Below are positions 957 through 13,838 of a stretch of 39,768 nt of DNA, piece by piece. Each line of letters opens with the position of its first letter. Positions within the stretch are counted from its first letter, which is position 1. Made by a program: the position numbers and the translations under genes. The notes under the pieces are model-generated. The model saw only the letters and a program-made list of their open reading frames with translations, made no database searches and was not told the DNA's origin. Source of the stretch: a bacterium (GTDB taxonomy: Bacteria > CLD3 > SB21); NCBI GenBank assembly GCA_019695335.1, contig JAIBAF010000030.1, positions 1-39,768 of the forward strand, given 5' to 3'.

Positions 957-1730
957 ATGCGAACGATTCATGTAACACGATACGCGACACCGCTGCGCGA
1001 AGGCGGATCGCTGCCGGCGATTGTCGAAGCAGATGACGACGGTTTGTACGTTTTAAAGTTTCGCGGCGCAGGCCAGGGCGCCAAAGCGCTCATCGCCGAA
1101 TTGGTGGCCGGTGAAATCGCGCGGACTCTGGGATTGCCCGTTCCGGAGATCGTCACGGCCGATCTCGATGCCGTTTTGAGCCGCACGGAGCCCGATCCGG
1201 AAATTCAGGATTTACTCCGTAACAGCGCCGGACTCAATCTCGCGCTCGATTATCTCCCCGGCTCCATTACGTTCGATCCGTTGGTCGACGTGATCGATCC
1301 GAAACTGGCATCGCAAATTGTCTGGTTCGATTGTTTCGTGATGAATATCGACCGCACACCGCGTAATCCGAATCTCCTCATGTGGCATAAGAAACTATGG
1401 TTGATCGATCATGGCGCTTCACTTTATTTCCATCACAATGCGGCGGACTGGTCGGAACACGTTCGTAAACCGCTGCCGAAAGTCGGCGATCATGTGTTAT
1501 TGTCAAAAGCGTCGCAGTTGGAAAGCGTCGATAAAGAATTGGTTAAACTTCTGACTGCGGAAAAAATCAAAGACATCACAGCTTTAATCCCGGACGAATG
1601 GCTTTCGGAAAATTCCTCAGATTCTACGGCTGTAAAGCGGCAGGCTTACGCAGAATTCCTGACAAGCCGTGTCGCTGCATCGGAAATTTTTGTTAAGGAG
1701 GCGCTCAATGCCCGGCAAAGACTTGTTTGA
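957..1730 (+). CDS. HipA-like Ser/Thr kinase domain protein
   Basis: This 257-residue protein matches the compact HipA-like kinase family. Visible kinase features are Lys34 in YVLKFRG (ATP-binding lysine), the IDRTPRNPNLL segment with Asp132 and Asn137 (catalytic loop in HipA style) and LIDHG with Asp151 (metal-binding Asp). It lacks the N-terminal subdomain of classical HipA, and no HipB-like helix-turn-helix gene is next to it. Classical HipA/HipT phosphorylate aminoacyl-tRNA synthetases, but the target of this short family is unknown to me. The gene overlaps the next one (DUF3037-like) by 23 bases, so the two are almost certainly co-translated. Some databases call this family aminotransferase class I/II, which the sequence does not support. 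The start has no clear Shine-Dalgarno sequence. Confidence 0.8.
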   Translation: MRTIHVTRYATPLREGGSLPAIVEADDDGLYVLKFRGAGQGAKALIAELVAGEIARTLGLPVPEIVTADLDAVLSRTEPDPEIQDLLRNSAGLNLALDYLPGSITFDPLVDVIDPKLASQIVWFDCFVMNIDRTPRNPNLLMWHKKLWLIDHGASLYFHHNAADWSEHVRKPLPKVGDHVLLSKASQLESVDKELVKLLTAEKIKDITALIPDEWLSENSSDSTAVKRQAYAEFLTSRVAASEIFVKEALNARQRLV

Positions 1731-2100
1731 ATATGCCGTGATCCGGTATCTTCCGCGCGTCGATCGTGAAGAGTTTATGAATATCGGTATTATCCTCTAC
1801 TGCCCGACTCAGAAATTTCTTCAAGTCGCTTTCGAAATCAATGAACCAAGGCTCACGACGTTTTGCGGCGATTTCACAATGGCCGATCTGCAGGTGCATC
1901 TTTCCGCATTTGAACAAATTTGCGCAGGCGGAAAAGATGCCGGACCGATAGGCCAGCTATCAATCGGCGAACGTTTCCGCTGGCTGACCGCTCCGCGAAG
2001 TACAATTGTGCAACTATCGCCGACGCACACGGGTTTGTGTACGGACCCCAAAGCGATGCTTGGGCACTTGCTGGAAACGTTGGTAAGATATTCTAAATGA
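1708..2100 (+). CDS. DUF3037-like protein paired with HipA-like kinase
   Basis: The 130-residue protein starts at ATG 1708, chosen because AAGGAGG at 1695-1701 lies six bases upstream; an in-frame ATG at 1669 would add 13 residues without such a site. The N-terminal segment FEYAVIRYLPRVDREEFMNIG followed by ILYCPTQKFL is the hallmark of DUF3037 proteins, which are about this size. No transmembrane segment or catalytic motif is visible. The start lies inside the end of the HipA-like kinase gene, in another frame, so expression is coupled. From memory, DUF3037 genes often sit beside this kinase type, which suggests a partner, substrate or regulator of the kinase. The molecular role is unknown. 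Confidence 0.75.
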   Translation: MPGKDLFEYAVIRYLPRVDREEFMNIGIILYCPTQKFLQVAFEINEPRLTTFCGDFTMADLQVHLSAFEQICAGGKDAGPIGQLSIGERFRWLTAPRSTIVQLSPTHTGLCTDPKAMLGHLLETLVRYSK

Positions 2101-2186: not shown

Positions 2187-3374
2187 ATGCTTTCAATAAC
2201 TCGCCGGCAAATTAAATTTTTTTTCTTCTTAAATTTTTTACTTATACGATGCTCTTTTGCTCAATCAGTTGATGTTGCTGACGATTCATCAGCACTAAGT
2301 AAACAACTTTATCATAAATCTGTACAGGAACTGATTGAATATTCCAGAGATGCGCTCCACTGGTATTTATTGCACAATCAGGACTCCTTGGGATTTTACT
2401 TAGAACAATGGCAAAGCGTTTACGGTTCAATCGAACCAGCGCAAAGAATCAGAAATTTATGGAATTTAAGGGACGGTACGTTCTCATCAGACTCTATTAA
2501 CAGTACATTTTTAGCAACTTTATTAGAATACCGGGATCACAAGTTTTCAGAATATAGACATCAACCTTCTGAATCAAAGCCAAACCGGTTAATCTATAAG
2601 AATCCGTGGCGATACGTTGAATCATCCTTCAATGATCGCACTAAGAGCGAAGCTTCTGTTATTTCGAAGCGCCTCTCCCCAGATTCTATTAGTTATCGAA
2701 TCTGTCGCTTTTATGCAGGCGACTTTGATACCCTTCTTCTTCCATTGTATGATGGTCGTTTGCCTATCTCTCCTCTGACAGGCCAGTACCAAAACTTAAA
2801 AAGTAGTTTCCGTTTCGGTGGAGAAATTCGATTTGGTTCAAGCATCCCTACAGGCCATGCTTCAGTACTCAACCCGCACCCTTTTTTGGGGTTTGCTTTC
2901 GGCACTAAAATGCAGGAATTGGAAGCAATGCTTGGCATGTCATTTTTCATTTCTCGATCGCAACACAGTATTCTGGCAAAAAATTATTCTGGTTCTCAGT
3001 CATACGCACGTAAATTTTTTGGCGACTCATTTTTTCTTGACGGCAGTGTATCTCTCATAAGACGTCCCTATCATGAATTAAGAGTTGTAGGCGGGATCTC
3101 ATGGTACCAATTTTCAAATGATTGGGGAGGATTATTCACTTCGATCATTACAGGCGGCGATGACGATGATGATGAAACTGATCCAGACTCAATTACGATT
3201 AACGCTTTTGCTCCACAAATTGGTTTTGAATATCGATATTACACAAAAATCATTAAAGAATCGTTTTGGGGAATTAGGTTTTCAAAATATTTTACAAAAC
3301 TCAATAACCATGGCGGAACTAATTTAGAGGGAGCTCTTCTCTCCATTTCAATAATTCGAGGCTTCGAACGATAG
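2187..3374 (+). CDS. Exported protein of unknown function, possible outer-membrane beta-barrel
   Basis: I do not recognise this 395-residue protein. It begins with a basic stretch and a phenylalanine/leucine-rich hydrophobic segment ending in FAQ near residue 26, a likely signal peptide. The first half is helical and charged. From about residue 200 onward it shows alternating aromatic/polar segments (FGGEIRFGSS, PFLGFAFG, SFFLDGSVSL, RVVGGISWYQF, PQIGFEYRYY, ALLSISIIRGF) that resemble membrane beta strands, with an acidic loop GGDDDDDETDPDS near residue 325. A small outer-membrane barrel is therefore plausible. The gene is clearly more AT-rich than the preceding 2 kb, which may mark acquisition or weak constraint. 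No good Shine-Dalgarno sequence precedes the ATG. It is followed by a terminator at 3398-3435. Confidence 0.6.
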   Translation: MLSITRRQIKFFFFLNFLLIRCSFAQSVDVADDSSALSKQLYHKSVQELIEYSRDALHWYLLHNQDSLGFYLEQWQSVYGSIEPAQRIRNLWNLRDGTFSSDSINSTFLATLLEYRDHKFSEYRHQPSESKPNRLIYKNPWRYVESSFNDRTKSEASVISKRLSPDSISYRICRFYAGDFDTLLLPLYDGRLPISPLTGQYQNLKSSFRFGGEIRFGSSIPTGHASVLNPHPFLGFAFGTKMQELEAMLGMSFFISRSQHSILAKNYSGSQSYARKFFGDSFFLDGSVSLIRRPYHELRVVGGISWYQFSNDWGGLFTSIITGGDDDDDETDPDSITINAFAPQIGFEYRYYTKIIKESFWGIRFSKYFTKLNNHGGTNLEGALLSISIIRGFER

Positions 3375-12833: not shown

Positions 12834-13838
12834 TTACTTGCTTTGCGAGTTGATCAAAACATCGGCCAAATCTTCAATTGGCACCCGATATTTATTAAAA
12901 GCCGCATCACCAGCGACTTGAAGCGCCTTGAGATTTTTTTCGGAAACGTCATCCATTTGAGGACTTGCTTCGCCGAGTTCTGGTTCAATGCGCAGGTATT
13001 GTTTGGAGCAGTCAATGGCATCGAACATCATTCGGAGTTGGTAATCAGCCACTTCAGGACCGGCCGACATAATAATATCGAGAATAGGTTGGAGCCATTC
13101 GGCCTTTCCCCACTTTCGTGCTTCTTCATATTTATAAGACTTCTCGATTTTTCCGGTTCCAATGGACAAGATCACCATGTCTTTGGCTGTAGGATTGCCT
13201 TTGAATTTTCTTGCTTCGGCATAGGCACATAATGCGGGATTGTTGGCAAATACACCACCATCAACCAGTGGAATTTTTTTTCCGGCCATCGAGGTTACCA
13301 GAGCCGGAGCAAAATAAGTTGGAGCGGCCGAGGTGGCCCGGGCGACTTGCCTCGTTAAAAAATTGTTTTTTGGTTCATAGGCATCGTGTTGAGCAAAAAA
13401 TTCAGCGCTGCGATTTTCAATATCATACGCGGTCACCAGTGATGGCTTGAGCAGATCTTTCAACTGAACATCGCCGAAATAATCGGCCAAAGCTTTTTCC
13501 AGACCTTTGACTGAATATTCCTTATCCACAAAACCCCATAACGTTTTGACCTTGCGCCAGAAAGACGATTCAAAAATGTCTTTACCGCGCTTAACATAAA
13601 TATCAACCGCTTCATCCGCACGGTACTTTGGTCGTGAGGGTTTTGCGGGATCGGGAATGAGATAAAAACACGTGAGAATACCGCCGGTGCTCGTTCCGGC
13701 AATCAAATCGAAATAATCGGCAATCCGTGCATCGGGATTCCCGGATTTATCCTGAAAAATTTTCTCCAAATGAATGAGAATTTGTCCGGGAATAATTCCC
13801 CGGATTCCGCCGCCGTCTATCGATAAAATACGCGTCAT
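12834..13838 (-). CDS. Patatin-like phospholipase
   Basis: The 334-residue protein opens with ILSIDGGGIRGIIPG (oxyanion-hole glycines 9-11), followed by the nucleophile elbow GTSTGG with Ser50 and the catalytic aspartate in DGGVFANN (Asp193). This complete Ser-Asp dyad predicts acyl hydrolysis of phospholipids or related esters. No signal peptide is present, so it acts on the cytosolic membrane face unless exported otherwise. The sequence resembles bacterial patatins of the CapV sort, but no nucleotide cyclase is near, so CBASS is not supported. It is the last gene of the seven-gene GMC-to-patatin unit, 43 bases after the four-helix membrane protein, with AAGGTG ahead of its ATG. Confidence 0.9.
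   Translation of the reverse strand: MTRILSIDGGGIRGIIPGQILIHLEKIFQDKSGNPDARIADYFDLIAGTSTGGILTCFYLIPDPAKPSRPKYRADEAVDIYVKRGKDIFESSFWRKVKTLWGFVDKEYSVKGLEKALADYFGDVQLKDLLKPSLVTAYDIENRSAEFFAQHDAYEPKNNFLTRQVARATSAAPTYFAPALVTSMAGKKIPLVDGGVFANNPALCAYAEARKFKGNPTAKDMVILSIGTGKIEKSYKYEEARKWGKAEWLQPILDIIMSAGPEVADYQLRMMFDAIDCSKQYLRIEPELGEASPQMDDVSEKNLKALQVAGDAAFNKYRVPIEDLADVLINSQSK

Follow-up and report, generated by a model that had tools for sequence, protein, structure and literature searches.

The stretch of DNA analysed here (39,768 nucleotides; referred to as the window) represents an entire contig, and sequence farther upstream lies outside its view. Two genes on its forward strand, which code for a minimal HipA-like kinase and a DUF3037 protein, share their ends in two different reading frames (Table 1). 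Both family assignments and the 23-base overlap had been proposed in an earlier prediction made from the sequence (hereafter the original prediction), and all were borne out. For the DUF3037 gene, the ATG at position 1708 was used as start codon; a mechanical list of open reading frames has the upstream GTG at 1669 instead. The pair is flanked upstream by a gene for an NAD(P)-binding protein (219-884; Pfam) and downstream by a gene for a 395-aa protein (2187-3374) without Pfam match. Neither flanking protein was HTH or HipB-like in Pfam searches, in agreement with the predicted absence of HipB. No second copy of HipA_2 or DUF3037 was detected in the window's own genome at an E value of 0.001, and neither a sigma-70 promoter nor a terminator was found above chance level around the pair.

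Table 1. Location of the kinase and DUF3037 genes and of associated features in the window.
Feature	Position	Strand	Details
HipA_2 (PF20613) minimal kinase	957..1730	+	257 aa; ATG start; TGA stop at 1728-1730; Pfam E 1.9e-23
DUF3037 (PF11236) partner, short form	1708..2100	+	130 aa; ATG start; Pfam E 9e-46, whole length matched; no C-terminal extension
23-base overlap, two reading frames	1708..1730	+	3' end of kinase gene and 5' end of DUF3037 gene
AAGGAGG, Shine-Dalgarno-like, for DUF3037	1695..1701	+	6 bases before the ATG at 1708; within kinase codons K-E-A
TGA stop codon of kinase	1728..1730	+	spelled by the F-E codons (TTT GAA) of the partner

DUF3037 partners occur in a short and a long form. 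Among 214 loci, 172 partners have a tail of 1 to 29 aa past the DUF3037 core and 42 a tail of at least 48 aa; in this length count a truncated long form (L028) was entered as short and a protein with a 48-aa tail (L122) as long. The core score of L122 is nevertheless typical of the short form, and in the counts of residues, of the motif that spells the kinase stop and of ribosome sites given below (n = 172 short forms) L028 was placed with the long and L122 with the short partners. The window partner stops 4 aa past the core.

Adjacency of the two families, whose rarity in other genomes was to count against the original prediction, proved to be the rule. Among 386 genomes over many families, HipA_2 was present in 13 and DUF3037 in 10, and in 10/10 of the latter a HipA_2 gene was located directly upstream on the same strand. 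A hand comparison of 296 genomes (phylum of genome G069) found 63 of 67 DUF3037 places and 63 of 76 HipA_2 places adjacent to each other; three of the 13 HipA_2 places without adjacent Pfam DUF3037 adjoin a divergent DUF3037-like gene. A scan of contigs from 84,980 species genomes yielded at least 584 confirmed short-partner relatives. In the best 80 of these, i.e. those most similar to the window (by title mostly Bacteroidota, some Myxococcaceae and Betaproteobacteria), the kinase gene lies directly upstream in 80/80, with overlaps of 23 bases (65 loci), 14 (7), 20 (5) or 11 (3) that are in a single phase throughout. A same-strand kinase gene upstream was also present in 172/172 short-partner loci and in 38/42 others. 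Across phyla, the kinase and partner genes stay together as a single overlapping unit. Chance adjacency of functionally unrelated genes is contradicted by the counts from the 386 genomes, the best 80 and the 172 short loci and is hardly credible.

The kinase stop codon lies at the base homologous to that in the window in 143 of 170 short-partner loci (77/80, 5/8, 31/38 and 30/44) and in none of the 40 long-partner loci counted. In 157 of 172 short loci, the codons of a conserved (F/Y)-(E/D)-Y motif of the partner, read in the frame of the kinase, spell TGA. That the overlap keeps its length is in part a by-product of this motif. The constant 23 bases reflect common descent and coupling of the two genes; on their own they are no proof of selection for this exact overlap. 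The strong ribosome site that had been predicted for the DUF3037 gene is present in the window. However, AGGAG or GGAGG precedes DUF3037 in 55 of 172 short-partner loci, and a strong ribosome site is not a trait of the family.

The original prediction had also stated that the kinase possesses all catalytic residues. Indeed, none of Lys34, Asp132, Asn137 and Asp151 varies among the short-partner kinases (172 of 172 for each), and the Gly-rich loop (E15-G16-G17-S18) is conserved with Ser18 present in 170 of 172. The active site of the kinase is intact. When the kinase model (pLDDT 91.8) was compared with solved folds, the closest was CtkA of Helicobacter pylori (Z 16.6, 3.1 Å, 211 residues; 14% identity), followed by PI4-kinase II (PI4KII), CotH, HipT (Z 12.2, 3.7 Å, 189 residues) and HipA (Z 11.7). 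To our knowledge, CtkA acts without a DUF3037 partner. In HipBA, an N-subdomain-1 of about 100 aa precedes the Gly-rich loop and the kinase is adjoined by the HTH antitoxin HipB; in the window no HipB adjoins the pair, and the conserved Gly-rich segment of the kinase starts near residue 12, as anticipated from the claimed lack of the HipA N-terminal subdomain. Likewise, HipT and HipG/M/I/J are minimal kinases without N-subdomain-1. HipBST is a three-gene hipB-hipS-hipT unit, while the window pair consists of two genes. According to the available portions of a Hip kinase survey (PMC8262856), which covers other minimal Hip kinases and has no 'DUF' word there, the partners of HipT and HipG/M/I/J are HipS, HipB, HIRAN or resolvase-like proteins rather than DUF3037. 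The same portions describe a serine beside the Gly-rich loop that is autophosphorylated in HipA and HipT; a serine at this loop is present in HipT and mostly in HipM/I/J (PMC8262856), and the window kinase has Ser18.

In the short DUF3037 proteins, residues R89, Q102 and G109 are identical in 172/172, followed by S98 (171), W92 (170), R97 (169) and H107 (166), and position 99 is T or S in 169/172. Of these residues, R89, W92 and R97 are mostly replaced in the long forms (n = 40), in which R17 is mostly D; S98 is kept in 20/40, and at position 97 the four most frequent residues do not include R. Thus, an R-W-RS-Q-H signature is carried by short DUF3037 proteins and mostly absent from long ones. 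The conserved polar residues suggest a putative binding or active site in the short form, and the invariant ones would be as fitting for catalysis or ligand binding as for an inhibitor. An AlphaFold2 model of DUF3037 (pLDDT 89.1) could not be matched with confidence to any PDB entry (Foldseek E at best 0.3; VIA Z at best 3.1), nor did a sequence profile match PDB chains at an E value of 10. This absence of a match does not prove a new fold. For a HipS-like fold, which DUF3037 may still have, no support was obtained, with no HipS or HipA chain among the DUF3037 matches listed.

The original prediction had regarded the function of such a pair as not known, which does not hold for its relatives: these have been published as HipAD, DS-6 and PDC-M66 and as part of retron-Sda1. 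Models A and B of the PADLOC candidate PDC-M66 match the window pair (1.9e-24 and 2.8e-12); of the partner model (281 positions), only positions 4-128 are matched by the window partner. HipAD/DS-6, an Escherichia coli prophage system whose components are labelled toxin (HipA) and antitoxin (HipD) in phage PhiR5_1, resembles the window pair in that a HipA_2 kinase gene is followed by, and overlaps with, a DUF3037 gene. It differs in several respects: (i) HipD has 275 aa, with about 150 aa past DUF3037 that the window partner lacks; (ii) the overlap is 4 instead of 23 bases; (iii) the kinases are 27% identical and are separated in the tree by a supported branch (SH-aLRT 97); and (iv) HipAD is present in many viral contigs, where the short form is nearly absent. 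As reported in the accessible sections of PMC13092281, in which Brenes and Laub 2025 is cited for HipAD, DS-6 was renamed HipAD, its partner consists of DUF3037 and DUF1829, a catalytic mutant of the kinase loses defence, and kinase and DUF3037 are predicted by AlphaFold3 to form a complex. DUF1829 was undetected by Pfam in PhiR5_1 HipD at an E value of 0.1. The PDC-M66 and retron-Sda1 pairs have both the HipA and the DUF3037 domain in common with the window. According to the accessible part of PMC12548924, HipA and DUF3037 of retron-Sda1 protect against Bas51 even when the retron is absent; deletion of HipA abolishes this defence and deletion of DUF3037 is toxic. The C-terminal part of that partner is related to a retron DNA-binding protein (PMC12548924) and is missing from the window partner. 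In the published HipAD and PDC-M66 partners, DUF3037 is followed by another region of about 150 aa that is DUF1829 or HTH-like; it is absent in the window. Literature searches for DUF3037 and related pairs retrieved no separate description or test of the short-partner clade. The window pair is a neighbour of the published long-partner HipAD systems rather than one of them.

By analogy with these long-partner relatives, the window pair is best read as a short, chromosomal HipA_2-DUF3037 variant in which DUF3037 restrains the kinase and loss of restraint, e.g. by phage, may lead to a stop of growth; we assign this reading a probability of about 0.5. DUF3037 would bind the kinase and keep it in check, and the overlap may couple its synthesis to that of the kinase such that the inhibitor is always made. 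More speculatively, a kinase set free, for instance during phage infection, might phosphorylate a host target and thereby arrest growth. Since the short partner lacks the C-terminal region of the long form, it is unlikely to bind its own promoter, and control would be post-translational. Residues R89, W92, R97, S98, Q102 and H107 may read a signal, a nucleotide or a phosphorylated residue of the kinase. On plasmid p1 of Leptolyngbya boryana (L267:4739-5411), an IS1-like insert, recognized by eye, has left the kinase only from residue 185 onwards; its catalytic part is removed, while DUF3037 and the 23-base overlap are retained. Such a natural kinase knock-out with DUF3037 kept fits the idea of restraint. 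The near-invariance of R97, S98 and T/S99 in the short forms could instead point to DUF3037 as a substrate or scaffold of the kinase, with phosphorylation of its R-S-T motif (S98/T99) switching DUF3037 as the effector. We consider this improbable, given the weak conservation of S98 and R97 among the long forms and the retron-Sda1 deletions, which make the kinase the effector there.

Kinase phylogeny separated the two partner forms. In a quick maximum-likelihood tree, 31 short- and 36 long-partner kinases were split at a single branch (SH-aLRT 97), with several long-partner rows showing very long branches. Short kinases had been thinned at 65% identity to these 31, and L196, L202 and loci without same-strand kinase were left out of the trees; alignments A3 and A4 comprised 61 and 56 of the 80 loci, respectively, plus the window. 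A second tree was built without ten long rows, four of which had been flagged for long branches or odd composition while the rest were mostly near-copies, and with nine added kinases that have no detectable DUF3037. All nine fell on the short side. Eight of them lie outside the group of short-partner kinases, whereas L282 lies within it; the genome of the latter also holds a paired copy. One of the eight (L281) is a solitary HipA_2 kinase without adjoining DUF3037 from the window's own family (that of genome G003). The existence of solitary relatives counts against the kinase always needing DUF3037, and their position beside or inside the short clade implies that such a kinase can be tolerated without a partner. 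The proposal of a toxin/antitoxin or enzyme/regulator pair in the original prediction fits the published long-partner relatives, but its strict toxin-antitoxin version appears weakened by the partnerless kinases next to the short clade.

Little evidence was obtained for mobility of the short form by viruses. The short-partner kinase alignment had no match in 2.9 million viral contigs and the short DUF3037 alignment one weak match of 46 residues, whereas a single long-form HipD query recovered 36 viral-contig loci; this query is enterobacterial, and viruses of such hosts are probably well sampled. In a set of 50,697 phages, the window proteins matched two long-form systems only. Viral carriage of the short form is thus essentially absent from both collections, although IMG/VR may under-sample its hosts. 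The closer matches among plasmid records include Bacteroides and Parabacteroides, the Parabacteroides stretch having chromosome-like genes. A fixed genomic island or conserved neighbourhood was not found either, as 596 neighbouring proteins of 80 loci fell into 494 clusters, mostly unshared. Of 154 immediate neighbours, 126 (up to 650 aa) were scanned with PADLOC and Pfam for a defence-island setting; besides seven helicases that match Mokosh-type models and single or generic matches, nothing notable was present among the matches listed (25 of 43 PADLOC and 25 of 117 Pfam families).

These observations bear on a second reading, according to which the pair is a chromosomal signalling device whose kinase modifies a specific cellular protein with DUF3037 as sensor or catalytic co-factor, neither lethally toxic nor active in phage defence. 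In family f190, both flanks are common to 6 of 12 short loci and the upstream flanks to 4 more, unlike in most mobile defence systems; for the long loci of that family, both flanks are common to 7/7. The near-absence from viral contigs, the solitary sister kinases and the invariant DUF3037 residues specific to the short clade point in the same direction, and so does the occurrence of short and long forms together in 18 of 60 DUF3037-positive genomes (phylum of G231; assigned by score and frame length), which suggests different jobs. The published behaviour of retron-Sda1 and DS-6 argues against it, as do the patchy distribution of DUF3037 among the 386 genomes and the unshared neighbours of the 80 loci, both of which resemble gain and loss. 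On balance we regard this second reading as a serious competitor, though doubtful. Given the solitary kinases and shared chromosomal sites, a non-toxic enzyme/regulator pair is conceivable. Within the preferred model of a restrained kinase, the release by infection and subsequent arrest form the weakest step, because the short clade is not phage-borne, its neighbours give no clear sign of defence and some of its sister kinases are solitary; a defence role of the short-partner pair is what we infer from its long-partner relatives.

A rather more tentative proposal, which we think unlikely but worth stating, is that the short clade constitutes a separate chromosomal kinase switch in which DUF3037 would be an active sensor or enzyme using R17, R89, W92, R97, S98, Q102, H107 and G109, residues mostly lost in the long HipD. 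On this view, the HipAD of phages would have branched off as a distant relative, gained a tail that binds DNA and turned into a toxin-antitoxin system for defence. HipA-type kinases have been studied as toxins of persistence and phage defence with HipB- or HipS-type partners; here a widespread version has a different partner, for which no solved fold was matched and for which the published work found covers the long-partner branch. The short branch offers a minimal system for studying how DUF3037 would restrain a Hip kinase, and for examining whether such kinases serve chromosomal functions other than defence as well.

Some additional features were recorded. At the edge of the window, a reading frame cut by the contig end (1-168) encodes a 55-aa fragment without Pfam match, which we take to resemble a HicB-type antitoxin. 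The gene at 12837-13838 (minus strand) codes for a patatin-like phospholipase; PADLOC 'Effector' phospholipase models, presumably those of CBASS, match it at 3.5e-68. Because no cyclase family was detected by Pfam in ten proteins scanned between 11 and 22 kb, its product may be an ordinary patatin. In the contig of locus L084, titled Comamonas sp., the overlap region of the pair is near-identical to that of Myxococcus xanthus AM003 (L056), possibly as a result of contamination or mislabelling. Finally, in 7 of 80 loci (L039, L049, L053, L081, L089, L099 and L106) the DUF3037 gene is followed after 0-44 bases by a gene for a UPF1/IGHMBP2-like SF1 helicase of about 635 aa that matches PADLOC MkoA models (best 2e-100). 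In some lineages the helicase gene may belong to the unit as a third member; alternatively, its position may reflect no more than local synteny.
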